From assembly GCF_003353425.1 (NCBI RefSeq), contig NZ_QRAO01000004.1, positions 124,001-188,000 on the forward strand: 64,000 nucleotides of DNA. Direction: 5' to 3'. The DNA comes from Marinirhabdus gelatinilytica. Its GTDB lineage: Bacteria; Bacteroidota; Bacteroidia; Flavobacteriales; Flavobacteriaceae. Of this stretch, positions 1 to 46,849 are shown one piece after another. The position numbers were made by a program, and so were the translations under genes. Within the stretch, counting starts at the first letter, position 1. The number at the start of each line of letters is the position of its first letter. Under the pieces are notes generated by a model that saw only the letters and a program-made list of their open reading frames with translations, did no database searches and was not told the origin of the DNA.

Positions 1-88
1 TTCCAAAAACAAGATTATCAAAATCCACTTCTGGTAATCTTGAGGTGGTCACTTTTTTTACGGTAATTTGTTCAGTGCTTGTATTCAT
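1..88 (-). CDS. ilvE: Branched-chain amino acid aminotransferase, N-terminus only
   Basis: The reverse strand has an ATG at 88-86 followed by 29 open codons that run off the left edge. The visible residues begin MNTSTEQITVKKV and include VDFDNLVFG. This resembles the N-terminus of flavobacterial branched-chain aminotransferases (PLP-dependent transfer of the amino group of Leu, Ile or Val), which have a VDFNNLxFG stretch at the same place. No catalytic residue is in view, so the assignment rests on this short resemblance. It is divergent from the lipoprotein gene at 202 and has a -7 like element at 118-111 on its own strand. Confidence 0.5.
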   Translation of the reverse strand, partial: MNTSTEQITVKKVTTSRLPEVDFDNLVFG

Positions 89-110
89 AGAGGGTAAGGT
101 CGTTTGGGTA

Positions 111-118
111 CAAAATTA
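111..118 (-). promoter_or_regulatory. Candidate Bacteroidota -7 element for the gene at 88-1
   Basis: Read on the reverse strand this is TAATTTTG, an exact match to the TAnnTTTG -7 consensus of Bacteroidota. It lies about 23 bases before the ATG at 88. A TTTG at 147-144 could be the -33 element, but the spacing (25 bases) is a little long. Confidence 0.4.
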
Positions 119-201
119 ACGAAAATTTAGTCGTAAAAAAATCCAAAAAATTCATAAAATTGCAGTATCTTATAAGATAAAATCAAAACGAAATATTCCA
201 G

Positions 202-723
202 ATGAAAAATATAATTTTTGCAGTACTCTCCTTAGCAGTATTAACCGCGTGCAATAACAAGGTTGAAAAAGAAACTGAAGTTGAGAAGGAAGTTGAAACA
301 ATAACTACCGAAACCCTGGCCTACCAAGAATTTGGCGAGAAAATAACCGATGCAGATGTTCTTACGAAAGAAGAAATGTACGAAAAGTATAAAAACCTGA
401 AACCTGGCGATACGGCGCAAGTGAAGTTTAAGGCCAAAGTAAACAGTGTTTGCCAAAACAAGGGTTGCTGGATGCGATTGGATGTGGGCGATGAAGAAGC
501 TTTGATAAAGTTTAAGAACTATGGTTTCTTTATGCCAAAGGATATTGCGGGAGATGAGGTGATCGTGAGAGGAAAAGCCTATGTGGACGAAATGAGCGTA
601 GAGGACCAACGCCATTTTGCCGAGGATGCAGGAAAGAGCAATGAAGAAATAGCAGCCATTACTACGCCGAAGAAAACCCTTTCCTTTACGGCAGATGGTG
701 TCTTGCTTCCAGAAAACCAATAA
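202..723 (+). CDS. DUF4920 domain lipoprotein
   Basis: 173 residues. The N-terminus is a lipoprotein signal with a lipobox ending LTAC, so Cys17 would be lipidated and the protein anchored in a membrane. A low-complexity Glu/Val/Lys linker (about residues 20-37) leads into a domain with KVNSVCQNKGCWMRL and VRGKAYVDEMSVEDQRHFAEDAG, which match the DUF4920 family. The two close cysteines (CQNKGC) are a family feature and could bind metal or form a disulfide; that is inference. The next gene, mnmD, starts 8 bases after the stop, so both may be cotranscribed although their roles are unrelated. Confidence 0.8.
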   Translation: MKNIIFAVLSLAVLTACNNKVEKETEVEKEVETITTETLAYQEFGEKITDADVLTKEEMYEKYKNLKPGDTAQVKFKAKVNSVCQNKGCWMRLDVGDEEALIKFKNYGFFMPKDIAGDEVIVRGKAYVDEMSVEDQRHFAEDAGKSNEEIAAITTPKKTLSFTADGVLLPENQ

Positions 724-731
724 ACCAACCC

Positions 732-1403
732 TTGAAACGTGAATTCCTAACCACGGGGGACGGCTCGGTAACCATTCACCTACCAGACTGGAACGAACAA
801 TATCATTCCAAGCACGGTGCCATTGCCGAGGCTATGCACGTGTTCATAAAAGAGGGTTTGCACCATTATCTTGTCACGAACAAACCTGCAGCTCTCTCCA
901 TACTTGAAATAGGTTTTGGCACTGGTCTCAATGCCCTGCTCACAGTTTCGGAGGTTAGCGAGCAATCTATTCGTTGTAATTATGTTGGGGTAGAGGCATA
1001 TCCAGTATCGTCTGCCGAGATTGCAAAACTCAACTATGCCGAAAAGACAACTATTCCTGAAGAAATATTTCGAAAGCTACATAATGCTCCTTGGGAAGAC
1101 CCCACAGAAATTATTGAAAATTTTTCATTGCTAAAGCGCAAACAGTTCTTTTCAGAAATTTCAGATAAGGATACATTCAACCTTATCTATTTCGATGCCT
1201 TTGGAGCAAGGGTGCAGCCCGAGCTTTGGACGGAGGAGATTTTCAGTAAAATGTTCACTGCGCTAAAAAATGACGGTGTTTTGGTAACCTATTCAGCAAA
1301 AGGTAGTGTGAGGCGAGCACTACAATCCGTAGGTTTCACTGTGGAAAGACTCCCTGGGCCACCCGGAAAACGTGAAATGCTAAGGGCTCTAAAAAGGTCT
1401 TAG
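732..1403 (+). CDS. mnmD: tRNA (mnm5s2U34) methyltransferase MnmD
   Basis: 223 residues, starting with TTG at 732. This start gives KREFLTTGDGSVTIHLPDWNEQYHS, which matches the usual beginning of stand-alone MnmD/MnmC2 proteins. The SAM-binding ILEIGFGTGLNALLT lies near residues 57-71 and FNLIYFDAFGARVQPELW near 149-166. MnmD methylates the aminomethyl group on the wobble uridine of certain tRNAs and needs no MnmC1 oxidase domain. The last codons (from 1375) and the stop are the first copy of a 46-bp tandem repeat that continues downstream, so the end of the coding region is also part of a repeat array. Confidence 0.82.
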   Translation: MKREFLTTGDGSVTIHLPDWNEQYHSKHGAIAEAMHVFIKEGLHHYLVTNKPAALSILEIGFGTGLNALLTVSEVSEQSIRCNYVGVEAYPVSSAEIAKLNYAEKTTIPEEIFRKLHNAPWEDPTEIIENFSLLKRKQFFSEISDKDTFNLIYFDAFGARVQPELWTEEIFSKMFTALKNDGVLVTYSAKGSVRRALQSVGFTVERLPGPPGKREMLRALKRS

Positions 1404-1567
1404 CATTCGTGTTTTTTTACAAATGCTAAGGGCTCTAAAAAGGTCTTAGCATTCGTGTTTTTTTACAAATGCTAAGAGCTCTAAAAAGGTCTTAGCATTC
1501 GTGTTTTGTTTTACAAATGCTAAGGGCTCTAAAAAGGTCTTAGCATTCGTGTTTTTTTACAAATGCT
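1375..1567 (+). repeat. Tandem array of a 46-bp hairpin unit overlapping the mnmD stop
   Basis: Four head-to-tail copies: 1375-1420, 1421-1466, 1467-1514 (48 bp, a longer T run with one G and one G-to-A change) and 1515-1560. A 7-base start of a fifth copy follows at 1561-1567. Each unit holds AATGCTAAG and its exact reverse complement CTTAGCATT. Hairpins can therefore form inside a unit (14-base loop) or across unit borders (CTTAGCATT, then a T-rich loop, then AATGCTAAG). The first copy contains the mnmD stop codon. With 1576-1607 it fills most of the 369-bp gap before the next gene. The cross-border hairpin followed by T runs could serve as a terminator. Confidence 0.95.
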
Positions 1568-1575
1568 GGCGTCAA

Positions 1576-1607
1576 CCTAGTATTTGTGATTTTTAAAAAA
1601 TACTAGG
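1576..1607. repeat. Solitary hairpin related to the 46-bp array
   Basis: A 10-base perfect inverted repeat, CCTAGTATTT and AAATACTAGG, with a T-rich loop; 32 bases in all. It has the same length and layout as the cross-border hairpin of the array (for example 1399-1430). It differs from it by compensating changes at two stem pairs (T-A to C-G and C-G to T-A). The rest of the gap, 1608-1772, shows no gene; TATATTTA at 1732-1739 is one base off a -7 element for the gene at 1773. Confidence 0.9.
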
Positions 1608-1772
1608 GGCAATGAAGCATTGAAGTTTCATATTTCTATCTCCAACACTCAGGATCATGCCCAAGATTACCACAAGGTCTCCTTCATATTAAAGTTCCGT
1701 TAATCCCCATCGTATTGTACTGGCAACATTGTATATTTAGGTGATTGCAAGTATGAAGAGAAAAATGACGAG

Positions 1773-2675
1773 ATGAAAATATTAATAACCGGAGCCACTG
1801 GACTTATTGGCACGCAGCTTACCGAATATTGCCATGAAGAAGGGATAGAGGTTAATTACCTTACCACCAGCAGAGAAAAAATAGAAAACCGCCCCAATTA
1901 CAAAGGCTTTTATTGGAATCCAGTAGAAAACGAAATAGACACCAATGCATTTACAGATGTAATTGCCATTATCAATTTGGTGGGTGCTACCATTTCTAAA
2001 CGATGGACGAAAAGCTATAAGAAAACGATCCTTGAGAGTAGAACGCAGACTGCCAATTTACTATTTGAAACATTAAAAAGCATAAACCATAGCGTATCAC
2101 ATTTTATCTCCGCGAGCGGTGTGAGTATTTATCCAAACCATCCTACAAAATTGTACACTGAAAATAGCAGTGAGGTTTCCAGGGATTTCCTGGGAGAAGT
2201 GGTGATAGCCTGGGAGGCTGCTGCAGATCAATTTGAGACATTGGGGATACGGGTGGCAAAAATACGCACAGGAGTAGTTTTTGCTGAAGAAGAAGGTGCT
2301 TTCCCTAAAATAATGGAACCCATTGAAAAAGGATTTGGAGCTCCCTTGGGTAGCGGCGAGCAATGGATTTCGTGGATTCACTTAAACGATATCACATCTA
2401 TTTACTTGCACATTTTAAAAAATGGTTTGGACGGAGTGTACAATGCAGTAGCACCCAATCCAGTGACCAATAAAAACCTTACCTTTAAGATAGCTGCCGC
2501 TCTCAACAAGAATATTTGGTTGCCCAATGTGCCGGGCTGGGTGCTTAAATTGGTGCTAGGACAAATGGCCAACTTAGTGCTTAAAGGGCAACTGGTAAGC
2601 TGTAAAAAAATTGAAGCTACCGGCTATAACTTTATGTTCGTGAATATTAACTACGCCATTAAAAAATTGGTATAA
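1773..2675 (+). CDS. NAD(P)-binding SDR epimerase, TIGR01777/YfcH family
   Basis: 300 residues beginning MKILITGATGLIGTQL, the Rossmann GxxGxxG motif at residues 7-13. ISASGVSIYP and the later QWISWIHLNDI are hallmarks of the TIGR01777 (SDR39U1, E. coli YfcH) epimerase-like family, and the length fits. The substrate of this family is not established. The gene stands alone between the repeat region and the convergent yceI-like gene. Confidence 0.8.
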   Translation: MKILITGATGLIGTQLTEYCHEEGIEVNYLTTSREKIENRPNYKGFYWNPVENEIDTNAFTDVIAIINLVGATISKRWTKSYKKTILESRTQTANLLFETLKSINHSVSHFISASGVSIYPNHPTKLYTENSSEVSRDFLGEVVIAWEAAADQFETLGIRVAKIRTGVVFAEEEGAFPKIMEPIEKGFGAPLGSGEQWISWIHLNDITSIYLHILKNGLDGVYNAVAPNPVTNKNLTFKIAAALNKNIWLPNVPGWVLKLVLGQMANLVLKGQLVSCKKIEATGYNFMFVNINYAIKKLV

Positions 2676-2677
2676 AA

Positions 2678-2707
2678 AAAAGCTGCGAAGTTTCCTTTAC
2701 AGCTTTT
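2678..2707 (-). terminator. Rho-independent terminator between convergent genes
   Basis: AAAAGCTG (2678-2685) and CAGCTTTT (2700-2707) form a stem. On the reverse strand it is followed by a run of T, which fits termination of the YceI gene; in the + direction it may also end the SDR transcript. Confidence 0.6.
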
Positions 2708-2726
2708 CCTTATTAAAATTTGTTAG

Positions 2727-3392
2727 TTATTCTTTAGATGCGTGGAGCTCTACTTGCAACTCCATATCGTCACTAATGAATTTATCTCCAAGATTATCAA
2801 AGATAGATTTTGACCCATAGTTTACATCCCATAGTGTACGGTCTATTGTAAATTTCTCACTTTTTAGGAATAATGTTTCCCCAGGGTAAGAAACCGTAGC
2901 GTTAAAAGAAACTGGGTTTGTTTTGTCCTTTATGGTTAAGTTACCTTTCACGGTTGGCTTGTATTGGTTGCCTTCAATGCTGGTAATCTCGAAAGTTGCC
3001 GTTGGAAACTTGTTGGCGTTAAAAAAGTCTCCCTCTTTCCCCTCAACCGTTCCCATAAGGTGGGCTTCAAGATTTTCCTTGCCGTCACCTGCGTCAAGAT
3101 CGGTTACGGTGATACTTTTCATGTCTATTGAAAATGAACCAGCCTCTATGGTTCTATCATTCACCAACACTTCTCCGCTATTAAGAGAAATTGTACCGGT
3201 GTGCGTCCCAGTGGGCTTGCTCCCGGACCAATTAATGACAGATTTTTCTGCGTTTACCATATAGGCCTCGGCTGTTTCCTCTGCTTCGGCAACTGCTTCA
3301 GTTTCGGTCTTTTTCTCTTTGGTTTCGTTACAGGATGTAAATGTGAAAGCTGTACAAAATGTAACAGCTAGTAAGATGGTTGATTTTTTCAT
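2727..3392 (-). CDS. YceI family lipoprotein
   Basis: 221 residues. The signal peptide ends in FTSC, so Cys21 is the predicted lipid anchor, followed by a charged Glu/Lys/Thr linker to about residue 44. The YceI lipocalin-like barrel follows: INWSGSKPTGTHTGTI, then FEITSIEGN, NLTIKDKTNPVSF, and RTLWDVNYGSKSIFDNLGDKFI at the end. YceI proteins bind long isoprenoid or other amphiphilic ligands in a hydrophobic pocket; the ligand here is unknown. It is divergent from grpE and has its own promoter candidate at 3448-3421. Confidence 0.85.
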   Translation of the reverse strand: MKKSTILLAVTFCTAFTFTSCNETKEKKTETEAVAEAEETAEAYMVNAEKSVINWSGSKPTGTHTGTISLNSGEVLVNDRTIEAGSFSIDMKSITVTDLDAGDGKENLEAHLMGTVEGKEGDFFNANKFPTATFEITSIEGNQYKPTVKGNLTIKDKTNPVSFNATVSYPGETLFLKSEKFTIDRTLWDVNYGSKSIFDNLGDKFISDDMELQVELHASKE

Positions 3393-3420
3393 GATTTTTC
3401 AATTATAATTGATTCGACTT

Positions 3421-3448
3421 CAAAATTACCTTTTCTCGCAAAATTCAA
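3421..3448 (-). promoter_or_regulatory. Candidate promoter of the YceI gene
   Basis: On the reverse strand TTG at 3448-3446, 17 bases, then TAATTTTG at 3428-3421, an exact TAnnTTTG. It lies 29 bases before the ATG at 3392. Confidence 0.5.
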
Positions 3449-3480
3449 TCTTAAAGTTATATTAAATAAATGTGGTGACA

Positions 3481-3514
3481 TTTTGACATTTCTACTGAAA
3501 TGGCAGTACTTTTG
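3481..3514 (+). promoter_or_regulatory. Candidate promoter of grpE-dnaJ
   Basis: TTTTG at 3481-3485, 21 bases, then TACTTTTG at 3507-3514. This is one of the best matches to the Bacteroidota TTTG/TAnnTTTG promoter in the window. The start of grpE is 34 bases downstream. No CIRCE element is visible. Confidence 0.65.
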
Positions 3515-3548
3515 CAACTTTCAGGAAAATTAAAAAAGACACGCTTTT

Positions 3549-4112
3549 ATGAGCAAGAAAGATAAAATAAACGAGGAGCAACAGCCCCAGGGTGAAACTG
3601 CCACACAAGAAGTTGAAAAAGATCCTGTTGCCAAAGAAACGAAAACTGCCGAAGCGAAGGTAGATGAGGTTTCAAAATTAAAAGAGGAAGTAGCTGCAGA
3701 AAAAGATAGGTATTTACGCCTATTTGCAGAATTTGAAAACTATAAAAAGCGAACCAGTCGTGAACGTTTGGAGCTTTTTAAAACAGCAGGACAGGAAGTA
3801 ATGGTTGCAATACTTCCCATCTTGGACGATTTTGACCGTGCCTTGGCCGAAATCAAAAAAAGTGAGGACGACGAACATTTTAAAGGTGTAAACCTCATTA
3901 ATCTAAAACTGAGGGAAACCTTGAAGCTTAAAGGCCTTGAACCACTTGAAACCAAACAGGGCGATACCTTTGATGCAGAGATCCACGAAGCCATCACGCA
4001 AATCCCAGCACCCGAAAATAACATGAAGGGAAAAATTATAGACGTGGTAGAGAAAGGCTATAAGCTAGGCGATAAAATTATTCGCTACCCAAAAGTGGTA
4101 ATAGGACAATAA
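3549..4112 (+). CDS. grpE: Nucleotide exchange factor GrpE
   Basis: 187 residues. A charged, disordered N-terminal stretch (about 1-40) precedes a long coiled coil with RYLRLFAEFENYKKRTSRER and the C-terminal beta domain with VEKGYKLGDKIIRYPKVVIG, the family signature. GrpE dimers release ADP from DnaK in the cytoplasm. The dnaJ gene follows 57 bases downstream, the usual pairing; dnaK is not in the window. Confidence 0.95.
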   Translation: MSKKDKINEEQQPQGETATQEVEKDPVAKETKTAEAKVDEVSKLKEEVAAEKDRYLRLFAEFENYKKRTSRERLELFKTAGQEVMVAILPILDDFDRALAEIKKSEDDEHFKGVNLINLKLRETLKLKGLEPLETKQGDTFDAEIHEAITQIPAPENNMKGKIIDVVEKGYKLGDKIIRYPKVVIGQ

Positions 4113-4169
4113 TATATAGCTTAAAGTATAAGAAATAAGTAAACCGTACCCACTGCGTGGGAATAGATA

Positions 4170-5291
4170 ATGAAAGAAGACTTTTACGATATACTAGGAA
4201 TCAATAAGAATGCCTCTGCGGCCGAAATCAAGAAAGCCTATCGGAAAAAAGCGATAGAGTACCATCCGGACAAAAACCCGGGAGATAAAACAGCAGAAGA
4301 AAAATTTAAGAAAGCAGCCGAAGCCTATGAAGTATTGAGCGACCCTAATAAAAAAGCTCGTTACGACCAGTATGGTCACCAAGCCTTTGAAGGAGGTGGT
4401 TTTGGAGGTGGCGGTATGAATATGGAAGACATATTTAGCCAGTTTGGAGACATCTTTGGCGGTGCCTTTGGCGGTGGCGGCGGTTTTAGTGGCTTTAGCG
4501 GTTTTGGTGGCGGTGGTCGTCGTACCGTAAAAGGTAGCAATTTGCGCATTCGTGTGAAATTGACACTGGAGGAAATTGCCAACGGAGTAGAGAAAAAAAT
4601 TAAGGTAAAGCGCAAGAAACAAGCACAGGGAACCACTTACAAAACCTGTACAACTTGTAACGGTGCTGGGCAGGTAACCCGTGTGCAAAATACTATTCTG
4701 GGTCGTATGCAAACTTCTGCGCCCTGTAGTACCTGTGGGGGTGCTGGGCAGATTATCGATAAAAAACCAGCCAATGCAGACGCGCAGGGTATGTTGGCCA
4801 CGGAGGAAACCGTGAGTATAAAAATACCTGCTGGTGTGGTAGATGGTATGCAGCTCAAGGTTTCTGGAAAAGGAAACGATGCCCCAGGAAATGGTATAGC
4901 TGGAGATCTTTTGGTTGCTATTGAAGAAAAACCACACCCAAGCCTACAGCGTGAAGGGGACAACTTACATTACGATCTTTACATAAGTTTTTCTGAAGCT
5001 GCTTTGGGAGCATCAAAAGAAATTGATACCGTTACCGGAAAAGTGCGCATAAAAATTGAACCAGGCGTGCAAAGTGGAAAAATCCTCAGACTTCGCAACA
5101 AGGGTATTCCTAGTATTAACGGCTACGGAACTGGAGATTTGTTGGTACACGTAAATGTGTGGACACCAAAATCCCTATCTAAGGAACAAAAAGAATTTTT
5201 CGAGAAAATGAGTGCAGACGATCATTTTAAACCCAATCCGGAAAAAGAGGACAAGTCGTTTTTCGAGAAAGTAAAAGATATGTTTTCTTAA
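4170..5291 (+). CDS. dnaJ: Chaperone DnaJ with a reduced zinc domain
   Basis: 373 residues. J domain at 1-70 with HPD at 32-34, a long Gly/Phe-rich linker (about 74-117), a central cysteine region and the two C-terminal substrate-binding beta domains. DnaJ delivers unfolded clients to DnaK and triggers its ATPase. The central region has only two CxxCxGxG motifs (Cys160-Gly167 and Cys186-Gly193) instead of four. They correspond by position to motifs 2 and 3, which build zinc centre II; motifs 1 and 4 (zinc centre I) are replaced by other sequence. It is cotranscribed with grpE. Confidence 0.94.
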   Translation: MKEDFYDILGINKNASAAEIKKAYRKKAIEYHPDKNPGDKTAEEKFKKAAEAYEVLSDPNKKARYDQYGHQAFEGGGFGGGGMNMEDIFSQFGDIFGGAFGGGGGFSGFSGFGGGGRRTVKGSNLRIRVKLTLEEIANGVEKKIKVKRKKQAQGTTYKTCTTCNGAGQVTRVQNTILGRMQTSAPCSTCGGAGQIIDKKPANADAQGMLATEETVSIKIPAGVVDGMQLKVSGKGNDAPGNGIAGDLLVAIEEKPHPSLQREGDNLHYDLYISFSEAALGASKEIDTVTGKVRIKIEPGVQSGKILRLRNKGIPSINGYGTGDLLVHVNVWTPKSLSKEQKEFFEKMSADDHFKPNPEKEDKSFFEKVKDMFS

Positions 5292-5317
5292 ATAAACGTT
5301 AATTAATTAATTTTACC

Positions 5318-5325
5318 TATATTTG
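5318..5325 (+). promoter_or_regulatory. Candidate -7 element in the dnaJ-ABC gap
   Basis: TATATTTG, an exact TAnnTTTG, 27 bases after dnaJ. A start near 5332 would give a transcript of about 80 bases ending at the terminator at 5379-5412. No clear -33 element is visible. Confidence 0.3.
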
Positions 5326-5378
5326 GATATCGCTTAATTCTTTAAGTGATATTTTTCTTTTTCATAGCAATTTTTTTT

Positions 5379-5412
5379 CCCATCCTTGATATGTTTCGAG
5401 GGTGGGTTTTTG
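5379..5412 (+). terminator. Rho-independent terminator after dnaJ
   Basis: CCCATCCTTGA pairs with TTCGAGGGTGGG through G-C, A-T and some G-T pairs and is followed by TTTTTGTTTT. A weaker hairpin with ATATCGCTTAA and TTAAGTGATAT lies just before it at 5327-5352. Confidence 0.6.
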
Positions 5413-5531
5413 TTTTGGGAATAACCGTAACAAAACGCTAGGAATTGCTACTAACTGCTATAAATATTTCAATGTTTCAAGAATAGCTTCAGAACCTACA
5501 AACCTTTATATTTACACCACGTAAAAAATCT

Positions 5532-6458
5532 ATGGAAAAATTACTTGTAGCACAAAACGTTTCTAAATCTTTTGGAGAATTTAAAGCACTTAACGATGTA
5601 TCCATCGAGGTGCCTAAAGGAAGTATCTTTGGATTGCTGGGACCCAACGGTGCTGGTAAGACTACGTTTATACGCATTATCAACCAAATTACAATGCCAG
5701 ATACTGGAAAGGTATTCTTGGATGGAGAAGCCTTACAGCCACACCATATACAGCACATAGGATACTTGCCAGAAGAACGCGGCCTCTATAAATCTATGAA
5801 AGTTGGCGAGCAGGCACTCTACCTCGCGCAGCTTAAAGGACTTTCTAAAGATGAAGCCAAAACCAAACTAAAATATTGGTTCGACCGTTTGGAGATAGGT
5901 GATTGGTGGAACAAGAAGATACAAGAGCTTTCCAAGGGTATGGCTCAAAAAATACAGTTCGTGGTAACGGTCCTGCACGAACCCAAACTGCTTATTTTTG
6001 ATGAACCCTTTAGTGGTTTCGATCCAATTAATGCCAATCTTATAAAAGATGAAATTTTAAAACTTCGGGAAGATGGAGCCACGGTTATCTTTTCAACCCA
6101 CCGTATGGAATCTGTCGAGGAAATGTGCGACCATATTGCGCTCATCAACAAATCCAACAAAATATTGGACGGTAAATTGATCGATATCAAGCGCGCCTAC
6201 AAAAACAATACCTACGAAGTGGGTCTAGTGGCCCAAAATGCTGAAATGGTAAGTACCAGGCTCAAAGAAAAATTTGAAGTATCGCCCGCAACCTTCAAGA
6301 CCATTAACGATGAGCTTCAGTACAAGATCCAGATTCCTGAAACTGCTTCGGCAAACGACCTAGTGGGCTACTTGGCTACCCAAGGACAGCTTACTCACTT
6401 TGTGGAAGTGATCCCGAGCGCCAACGATATTTTTATCGAAACTGTAAACAACAACTAA
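5532..6458 (+). CDS. ABC transporter ATP-binding protein, NatA-like
   Basis: 308 residues. Walker A GPNGAGKT at 37-44, signature LSKGMAQK near 137-144, Walker B LLIFDEPFSG near 156-165, and an H-loop in IFSTHRMES. The C-terminal part (about 225-308) resembles the DUF4162 tail of many Na+/drug type ABC-2 ATPases. It forms an operon with its permease 12 bases downstream and probably the MscS channel. The exported substrate cannot be told from sequence; NatAB-type sodium export is one option. Confidence 0.88.
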   Translation: MEKLLVAQNVSKSFGEFKALNDVSIEVPKGSIFGLLGPNGAGKTTFIRIINQITMPDTGKVFLDGEALQPHHIQHIGYLPEERGLYKSMKVGEQALYLAQLKGLSKDEAKTKLKYWFDRLEIGDWWNKKIQELSKGMAQKIQFVVTVLHEPKLLIFDEPFSGFDPINANLIKDEILKLREDGATVIFSTHRMESVEEMCDHIALINKSNKILDGKLIDIKRAYKNNTYEVGLVAQNAEMVSTRLKEKFEVSPATFKTINDELQYKIQIPETASANDLVGYLATQGQLTHFVEVIPSANDIFIETVNNN

Positions 6459-36464: not shown

Positions 36465-36600
36465 GGAAAAAAAGAATTATTTCTGTTTTATTTCTAAGAA
36501 CGTTTGTAAGTAGTTGAAGATTAGTGAATTGTATTATTGGTAAATTGGTAAGTTAGTTAGTGCTAAAGTTATTTGTCAAATTTTCAATTTAACTAATTTT

Positions 36601-36652
36601 CTAACCTCTAACCTCTAACCTCTAACCTCTAACCTCTAACCTCTAACCTCTA
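36601..36652. repeat. Heptamer array CTAACCT
   Basis: Seven perfect tandem copies of CTAACCT plus a partial copy. It ends 2 bases from the stop codon of the cobalamin adenosyltransferase gene (36655-36657), on that gene's downstream side. The rest of 36465-36600 holds no recognisable feature. Confidence 0.95.
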
Positions 36653-36654
36653 AG

Positions 36655-37453: not shown

Positions 37454-37568
37454 TATGTAAAAGTAAGAAAAATGCCGAGGAGTTAGAAGATTTTATAGGT
37501 TGATAGTTGAGTTGTTTAAAAGTTTAGTGTTGAGAAGTCTAGATGTTTAGAAGTAGGTTTTTAGTTTT

Positions 37569-37601
37569 CACTACTCACTACTCACTACTCACTACTCACT
37601 A
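37569..37601. repeat. Heptamer array CACTACT across a stop codon
   Basis: Four perfect copies of CACTACT (37569-37596) plus a partial copy. On the reverse strand the stop codon TAG (37587-37585) and the last codons of the LolD-type ATPase lie inside it, so gain or loss of one heptamer would change the C-terminus. Confidence 0.95.
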
Positions 37602-45408: not shown

Positions 45409-46704
45409 ATGATAACTATGAAAGAAAAACCAACCATCGCCATTATAGGATTGGGCTATGTGGGGCTCCCCCTTGCTGTTGCCTTTGCAGAGAAGTACCA
45501 CGTAATTGGTTTCGATATCAATGAAGCCCGGGTGAACGAATTGAACAGCGGGACAGACCACACCCTAGAGGTAAGTGACAACGCGCTACAAAAGGTTTTA
45601 AAAGGTACTGCTGAAGGTTCACTACGAGTAACCACCCAAGCCGATACGATGAAGGAGGCCACAGTATACATCGTAACAGTGCCTACCCCAACCAATAAAT
45701 ACAACCAACCAGTATTAACGCCGCTTACTAAAGCCAGTGAGACCATTGGGAAACAGCTTGAAAAGGGCGATGTGGTTATCTATGAATCTACCGTATACCC
45801 TGGAGTCACCGAAGAGATTTGTGTGCCTATTTTGGAACAGGAATCTGGCCTGGCTTTCAATAAGGATTTTTATGCAGGGTATTCTCCAGAGCGTATCAAT
45901 CCAGGGGATAAAAAACATACCGTTACCAAAATATTGAAAGTTACCTCTGGATCCACTCCAGAGATTGCCCAAAAGATAGATGCGCTCTATGCATCGGTGA
46001 TTACGGCGGGAACACACTTGGCTCCCAGTATTAAAGTGGCCGAGGCTGCCAAAGTGATAGAGAACTCGCAGCGCGACATCAATATTGCGTTTGTGAACGA
46101 GCTGTCCAAGATTTTCCGTTTGCTGGATATCGATACCCACGCCGTATTGGAAGCTGCCGCAACCAAATGGAACTTTATAAAATTCACCCCGGGACTTGTG
46201 GGCGGTCACTGTATTGGGGTAGACCCTTATTATCTGGCACAAAAAGCACAGGAAGAAGGCTACAACCCAGAGATCATCCTGGCCGGTAGGCGTATGAACG
46301 ATGGGATGGGGAATTATGTAGCCCAAGAAGTGGTAAAGCTCATGATACAAAAGGAGTGCAAGGTAAAGAACGGGCACGTACTGCTTATGGGAATTACCTT
46401 TAAGGAGAACTGCCCGGACATTCGCAACAGTAAAGTAATTGATGTAATTGAAGAACTCCGGAAATACAATCTGAACATAGACGTGTACGACCCGTGGGCC
46501 GATGCTTCTGAGGTGTATAACGAATTCGGTCTGCACCTGCTCACCTCGCCAGAACAGTTAAAAGAGAATTATGAAGCTGTGATTTTGGCCGTGGGACATA
46601 GCAAATTTTCAGAGTTCGATTTTGAGAATCACTTGGCATCCCCTTCAGTGGTGTTCGATGTAAAGGGATTCTTTCCGAAGGAGAAAGTTGATGGGTGTTT
46701 GTAG
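45409..46704 (+). CDS. UDP-N-acetylhexosamine 6-dehydrogenase (WbpA/WbpO/TviB type)
   Basis: 431 residues; ATG 45418 is an equally good start. NAD motif GLGYVGLPLAVAFA at about 13-26, TVPTPTNKYNQP, and the catalytic Cys in GGHCIGVDPYYL near 265-276. The sequence is of the TviB/VipA group that oxidises UDP-GlcNAc or UDP-GalNAc to the uronic acid rather than UDP-glucose. With the epimerase at 47275 it would give UDP-GalNAcA. A heptamer array starts 5 bases after its stop. Confidence 0.88.
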   Translation: MITMKEKPTIAIIGLGYVGLPLAVAFAEKYHVIGFDINEARVNELNSGTDHTLEVSDNALQKVLKGTAEGSLRVTTQADTMKEATVYIVTVPTPTNKYNQPVLTPLTKASETIGKQLEKGDVVIYESTVYPGVTEEICVPILEQESGLAFNKDFYAGYSPERINPGDKKHTVTKILKVTSGSTPEIAQKIDALYASVITAGTHLAPSIKVAEAAKVIENSQRDINIAFVNELSKIFRLLDIDTHAVLEAAATKWNFIKFTPGLVGGHCIGVDPYYLAQKAQEEGYNPEIILAGRRMNDGMGNYVAQEVVKLMIQKECKVKNGHVLLMGITFKENCPDIRNSKVIDVIEELRKYNLNIDVYDPWADASEVYNEFGLHLLTSPEQLKENYEAVILAVGHSKFSEFDFENHLASPSVVFDVKGFFPKEKVDGCL

Positions 46705-46709
46705 GTAGT

Positions 46710-46849
46710 GGTTATCGGTTATCGGTTATCGGTTGTGGGTTGTGGGTTGACGGTTGTGGGTTGTCGGTTGTGGGTTGTCGGTTGTGGGTTGACGGTTGTG
46801 GGTTGTGGGTTGTCGGTTGTCGGTTGTCGGTTGTGGGTTGTGGGTTGTG
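46710..46849. repeat. Array of 20 heptamers GGTTNNN
   Basis: Twenty tandem 7-bp units with constant GGTT and variable last three bases: ATC three times, then a mixture of GTG, GTC and GAC. Length is exactly 140 bp. It starts 5 bases after the dehydrogenase stop. The reverse strand is open in all frames because 7 is not a multiple of 3, which produces spurious Thr/Asn/Gln/Pro-rich reading frames. Confidence 0.95.

Follow-up and report, generated by a model that had tools for sequence, protein, structure and literature searches.

Covarying hairpin repeats at the 3' end of mnmD in Flavobacteriaceae: a probable palindromic, locus-bound minisatellite

In many Flavobacteriaceae the last codons of mnmD are supplied by hairpin repeats whose fold is kept while their letters vary, and the older end of the gene has often been pushed downstream. 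The original prediction holds in the main; the place of the repeats, their units, two alternative stems with covariation and displaced gene ends can be read off directly in many loci. The best reading of the array described here is a palindromic minisatellite bound to the mnmD locus. We give roughly even odds (about 0.5) to the fuller reading, in which this locus-bound minisatellite at the gene's 3' end gains its units through template switching driven by the hairpins. No report of the hairpin repeat turned up in the open-access literature that we searched, subscription literature lying mostly outside that search. In what follows "the window" is the whole stretch of 64,000 nucleotides from Marinirhabdus gelatinilytica that was analysed, and the loci and genomes compared with it carry L and G numbers.

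The mnmD product in the window scores 211.8 bits against the NCBIfam MnmC2 model NF033855 (cut-off 136), the match ending at residue 221 of 223. The array begins inside this gene. The left arm of the first hairpin is formed by the E-M-L-R codons (AAATGCTAAG), and the last codons as a whole, EMLRALKRS-stop, form the left arm, the loop and part of the right arm (CTTAGCATT) of unit 1, the stop codon lying within that right arm (Table 1). An array after mnmD had been proposed in the original prediction; the array is real, but its position has to be corrected, since unit 1 starts in the final mnmD codons and carries the stop. A tandem-repeat scan of the window places it at 1375-1567 with a 46-bp period, 4.2 copies and a 95% match, that is, as tandem near-identical units within the 10-100 bp range of a minisatellite. 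Similarly homogenised arrays occur in L004, L114, L119 and L273, homogenisation being visible within single genomes only because one genome per species was compared. Two mutually exclusive hairpins are available to the array: P1 forms within a unit, and P2 spans the border of two neighbouring units by joining the upstream one's right arm to the downstream one's left arm. The predicted folding energy of 1370-1620 is -85 kcal/mol, against -52.1 kcal/mol (sd 4.2) for shuffled sequences (z -7.8), and none of 200 shuffles equals it.

Table 1. Features at the mnmD end in the window.
Feature	Positions	Strand	Remarks
mnmD	732..1403	+	ORF; NCBIfam NF033855 above cut-off; MnmC2-type tRNA 5-methylaminomethyl-2-thiouridine methyltransferase
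Repeat unit 1	1375..1420	+	46 bp; hairpin P1 = 1376-1384 with 1399-1407; stop TAG 1401-1403 in right arm
Repeat unit 2	1421..1466	+	46 bp
Repeat unit 3	1467..1514	+	48 bp
Repeat unit 4	1515..1560	+	46 bp
Decayed unit 5	1561..1585	+	short P1 AAATGCTGG / CCTAGTATT; assigned by eye against short units of relatives
Decayed unit 6	1598..1622	+	AAATACTAGGGGCAATGAAGCATTG, resembling 25-nt hairpins in L128 and L132; assigned by eye
Cross-border hairpin P2, units 1/2	1399..1430	+	right arm of unit 1 with left arm of unit 2; C.A mismatch at 10-23
Second hairpin of the original prediction ("solitary")	1576..1607	+	P2 between decayed units 5 and 6; assigned by eye
yfcH (next gene)	1773..2675	+	TIGR01777 family oxidoreductase

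Two hairpins of this region, the P2 of units 1 and 2 and a second one at 1576-1607, had been described as variants of one fold, and the description was confirmed in part. Both are 32 nt long and align without gaps (24 of 32 positions identical); pair 2-31 is T-A in the first and C-G in the second, pair 6-27 is C-G and T-A respectively, and the C.A mismatch at 10-23 has become T-A in the second. The compensating changes therefore stand as claimed, but the picture is less clean than it was drawn, as inner pairs 11-22 (G-C to G.A) and 13-20 (G.T to G.A) are damaged at 1576-1607. With two inner pairs broken, these two hairpins alone make a weak case, and it is the relatives that decide. Nor is the second hairpin solitary, being by eye a P2 formed between two decayed units.

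Across the family the units are about 34-66 bp long and share a layout: they open with the end of mnmD in copy (A-AATG-Leu-Arg-Ala-x-Lys), continue with these codons in reverse complement, and close with a short spacer with pairing ends. The stop codon is often supplied by the reverse-complement part (YTA read backwards is TAR), and in some loci it lies before or beyond the hairpin. To compare the stems we used alignment A2, in which 92.6% of the P1 cells are standard pairs (82.9% in shuffles; at most 36% for slid structures). Three of the nine P1 pairs vary on both sides: columns 6-33 are UA in 12 rows, CG in 11 and other in 1, columns 9-30 are AU in 11, CG in 10 and other in 3, and columns 8-31 hold four pair types with 5 rows unpaired. 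Columns 10-29 are unpaired in 8 of 24 rows. Cells in which both sides have changed number 28, against 11.4 after shuffling, a value that none of 500 shuffles reaches. For P2, 88.7% of cells are standard pairs (shuffles 81.6%; slid structures at most 44.5%). Of the five covariation measures, two are not raised over the shuffles: how many pairs show a double change (3 against 2.7 for P1, 5 against 4.3 for P2) and how many further pair types occur (8 against 8.8 for P1, 12 against 11.5 for P2). The loci were partly picked for their hairpins and the rows are related by descent, and the shuffle control leaves both effects in.

The inner stem of P2 is non-coding. Next to the C.A mismatch stand three bases that are complementary to the last three ahead of the following unit in 31 of 39 distinct P2 hairpins (10.8 in shuffles, maximum 19 in 2000), and with one P2 per locus all three pairs form in 20 of 26 loci (6.4 in shuffles, maximum 13 in 2000); both counts are without L102, L115 and L116, which have no units spaced at most 80 bp apart, and without L129 and L130. 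The variants include GAG/CTC, GAA/TTC, AAC/GTT, AGC/GCT and GGC/GCC, among others. The C.A mismatch is kept in 35 of the 39, GA...GA also stands inside the stem in 9 of the 39, and the C after CATT (a CATTC motif) is conserved in 30 of 38 units. The claim that the fold and not the sequence is conserved is supported across about two dozen genera, with both alternative stems covarying.

To see how widely the repeat occurs we compared the mnmD ends of relatives. Among the 5 genomes of the own genus, G000 and G001 have four-unit arrays with differing letters, G002 has an array broken by Ns and G003 has one hairpin; at mnmD of G004 the covariance-model search found neither hairpin nor array. The synonymous codons used for M-L-R differ between G000 and G001, and in each genome the right arm changes to match (ATGCTAAGG with CTTAGCAT in G000, ATGTTACGG with CGTAATAT in G001). 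The run of Ns in G002 (locus L003) falls exactly within the mnmD array, so that arrays of this kind may go unseen or be miscounted in assemblies. Heptamer arrays were also seen just behind mnmD in relatives, of CTACCAA in L003 and of TATTGGC around a run of Ns in L016. In a set of 107 mnmD ends chosen by MnmD similarity only (from 110 loci, with L027, L059 and L091 left unparsed; own genome included and a few species present twice), an exact arm of at least 8 occurs in 6 ends, with 0.7 expected by shuffling, and one of at least 9 in 4, with 0.14 expected; certain arm-match counts outside this set include loci picked by hairpin pattern. When 299 family genomes were scanned for the hairpin pattern, 24 had matches, 22 of them at mnmD, compared with 3 control matches. 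A scan across the order (196 genomes) gave one match each in 6 of 166 genomes outside the family, none of them behind an mnmD tail and none with more than 7 of 9 arm pairs.

A covariance model, R1, was built from 29 first units. In 31 chosen genomes all 53 of its matches, in 28 genomes, lie at the mnmD locus, most of these genomes having supplied the model. Run on 397 family genomes, R1 matched 42; in 41 of these, with 68 of the 69 matches, the place is mnmD, as judged from loci read directly or from coordinates compared with known mnmD loci. The held-out genomes agree: 19 of the 42 had contributed nothing to the model, and 18 of them match at mnmD. The one match elsewhere is in G311, in another gene that we take to be hutI. 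Carriers include Ichthyenterobacterium magnum and metagenome-assembled genomes of Altibacter and Algibacter. The remaining 355 genomes gave no match in a search that scores limited candidates with strict filters, so that weak copies could be missed; G183 carries an array yet is absent from the 42.

The covariation could reflect selection for a fold in the terminal part of the mnmD mRNA, where a hairpin that covers the stop codon or follows it closely would slow termination or block 3' exonucleases, as REPs near stop codons do in E. coli. The two covarying stems do lie on the mnmD sense strand. Furthermore, G.T mispairs exceed A.C mispairs by 25 to 5 in 38 distinct units (beside 41 mispairs of other kinds), as expected for a sense-strand RNA, although this is not proof of the strand because the left-arm codons are fixed and a mutation bias towards A+T acts likewise. 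REPs at most 15 nt from a stop codon are reported in parts of PMC12306157 to reduce translation. Since hairpins at stop codons can lower translation, a role in the mRNA is conceivable. The 355 family genomes without a match under strict filters, the matchless G004 of the own genus and the loci in which the stop lies before or beyond the hairpin all weigh against such selection, and we regard it as a rather unlikely account of the repeats. A structured RNA was among the suggestions of the original prediction and keeps this standing, but no Rfam family reaches its cut-off at the array in the window or in 11 relatives. Positions 1-6000 of the window gave just mir-122 at 1474-1542, with 28 bits against a cut-off of 70, so a known Rfam RNA was set aside. 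Flavo-1 RNA (RF01705, above cut-off) was seen directly upstream of mnmD on the opposite strand at L113:2221-2370 and L044:1326-1468, in two array-bearing genomes among the 11 loci scanned.

Might the array be one copy of a dispersed repeat of the REP/RAYT type, or an intrinsic-terminator cassette, that lies here by chance? It is palindromic and close to the end of a gene, T-rich spacers occur in some units, the window's among them, and terminator-like sites fall on the array (minus strand 1477-1444 and 1430-1399, plus strand 1557-1589); such spacers and sites are a feature of the window and not of many relatives, where many units have no T run behind the stem. BLAST finds a single place in the own genome, and the R1 matches are confined to mnmD with the one exception given above. 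A Y1-type transposase gene (PF01797, TnpA_REP) is present in 4 of 12 hairpin-bearing genomes and in 2 of 8 others, but there is no PF01797 match in the own genome, nor in 7 more of the 12, which speaks against a RAYT/IS200 link. We therefore consider a dispersed repeat or terminator cassette very improbable, and the two corresponding suggestions, a small palindromic mobile family and a reusable terminator, find no support. The covariance-model search that had been proposed did recover homologous loci with compensating changes, but no further members elsewhere in the genome. Likewise, the many genomic insertions that mark Rickettsia palindromic elements or MITEs were not seen, by BLAST in the own genome or with R1 in the 31 and 397 genomes.

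Tandem repeats were scanned in 464 kb (the 64-kb window, 220 kb more of the own genome and 180 kb of G001), and the only arrays with a period of 40-60 bp are the two at mnmD. The other periods of at least 25 bp are 33, 35, 90, 94, 104, 177 and 402 bp, the 94-bp period being the window's array again. The 90/177-bp array carries terminator-like hairpins; it lies in the own genome at L225:16326-16702, as 2.1 copies of 177 bp. A 104-bp repeat with 3.6 copies and a 97% match lies at L233:576-948 in G001. The window also holds perfect or near-perfect 7-bp arrays of TCTAACC (7.7 copies, 36600-36653), TCACTAC (4.9 copies, 37568-37601) and TTGTCGG (21.6 copies, 46699-46848).

The copies within an array differ with their distance from the gene, which bears on how arrays grow. 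For this comparison we dropped L006, L117 and L204, where copy 2 is the ATGTTGCGTTAA found ahead of yfcH, and, for the same reason, the final matches of L053, L114 and L150; L119 and copy 3 of L035 were entered manually. The sequence AATGTTGCGTTAA recurs upstream of yfcH in several loci, where it mimics a repeat start and is possibly part of a promoter. In the 29 curated array loci the hairpin score is at least 7.5 in 25 proximal but in 5 distal copies (p = 8e-6; the uncurated set of 31 gave 24 and 6); in 24 of the 29 the copy farthest from the gene has no hairpin. This distal copy often reads like a normal end of mnmD, stop included (MLRATK*, MLRATKS*, MLRAIK*, MLRAIKS*, MLRAIKV* or MLRAVKGG*). 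The hairpin-free, native-like distal copy therefore indicates that in these loci units were inserted between the gene body and an older end. In the window all four good units retain the hairpin and the last units have decayed, and there, as in other homogenised arrays, an old mnmD end could not be recognised.

In G523 (L265) a long, a short and a long unit, of two hairpin types, are followed by the native MLRATK*. The two copies at L150 differ at 1 of 21 bases, and simple tandem duplication is argued against there, since the stretch after the stop of copy 1 is missing behind copy 2. Empty-site comparisons are clearest for L115 against L020 (58.4 without units, 3.0 with units) and L116 against L041 (72.1 and 3.0), where removing the units clearly restores collinearity with the arrayless relative, a result that tandem duplication predicts as well. 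The signal is moderate for L008, L102, L134 and L153 and weak for others, and for many loci the mean difference over all relatives is about zero. L082 is closer to L156 in its uncut form (45.9 against 20.2), L156 itself seeming to carry such a unit.

An inserted unit with an old end behind it is also what a very small site-specific mobile element would leave, if its sole target were the 3' end of mnmD. Such an element would enter at GAA/ATG, bring a replacement C-terminus and stop, and displace the old end, served by a putative recombinase acting in trans; on balance we think this unlikely. It accords with the sharp A(A/G)ATG junction, the replacement C-termini and displaced native ends, the mixing of unit types in one array as in G523, and the recurrence of similar long units (ACGCGCTTGnAAAGAAGCG) in several genera. 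Yet no unit was found elsewhere in the genomes searched, and loops of 5 to 19 (38 units) are unlike the site of a dimeric recombinase. In 25 of the 30 loci with an array or hairpin (and in 108 of 155 others) a yfcH-like start, identified by sequence motif, follows at most 600 nt downstream, so there is no large insert or cargo there. A viral att site was rejected too: the pattern occurs in 99 viral stretches, 17 with 8 of 9 arm pairs and none with 9, all 99 were checked and none has a GKR tail upstream, and no MnmD relative was found in viral contigs. The most specific form, a 34-66 bp element with a single genomic target that stacks on the gene side, leaves the host gene intact and is recognised as a folded strand with its conserved C.A, is quite unlikely; if true, it would be among the smallest mobile elements imaginable.

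Template switching at the hairpin seems to us the likeliest source of the units, and it explains both the matched arms and the displaced ends. New units would form next to the gene body whenever the replication machinery changes template at the hairpin: the growing strand would copy its own fresh arm backwards, return upstream and repeat the gene end, giving the order arm, loop, reverse arm and gene end again. Slippage and recombination could then multiply or erase units, and the stems may be kept matched by template switching, by selection on an mRNA hairpin over the stop codon, or by both; the array is possibly retained for its mRNA fold. According to passages of PMC8794818, template switching creates hairpins and matches their stems in one step, and the evidence that it maintains short stems is there termed circumstantial. 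In our loci the right arms match the reverse complement of adjacent sequence; with one genome per species, a single step, or a single gain of a unit between close strains, is invisible. Several observations count against this reading: the spacer cannot be derived from the upstream gene by simple reverse complementation, perfect correction by template switching would erase the conserved C after CATT and the C.A mismatch, two covariation measures are not raised over the shuffles, and the window and other homogenised arrays show no displaced native end. The conserved mismatch and the CATTC motif suggest that the fold is recognised by something, or selected.

The hairpins described by Monttinen and Loytynoja (2022; parts of PMC8794818) are the closest likeness, as one template-switch (quasipalindrome) error yields a perfect reverse-complement arm and may keep stems matched; unlike them, the mnmD repeats, known here from sequence patterns, are family-wide, fixed to one gene end, arranged as direct repeats and marked by a conserved mismatch. 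Like REP/BIME sequences (with RAYT) they are short, palindromic, tandem and near stop codons, but they occupy one locus per genome searched, overlap the coding end, and no Y1-type gene was found in the own genome. Integrative elements such as SCC in rlmH and tRNA islands restore the 3' end of their target, the new end replacing the old, which is displaced downstream. The mnmD repeats resemble them in this replacement and differ in having units below 70 bp, in tandem, with no cargo between copies. Rickettsia palindromic elements, as presented in sections of PMC10969869, are palindromic repeats whose insertion adds in-frame residues to proteins; they are about 150 bp long and found in many genes, whereas the mnmD repeats are 34-66 bp and belong to one gene.

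The mnmD ends of the family form a natural series over dozens of genera, in which the coding constraint on one arm and its covarying partner arm can be traced together, and in many loci old gene ends are kept downstream as fossils. With this series the origin of compensatory changes can be questioned: they may stem from selection acting on a fold, or from an error of replication by which one arm is copied onto the other. Where covariation is interpreted as a sign of function, this point is usually assumed without question.
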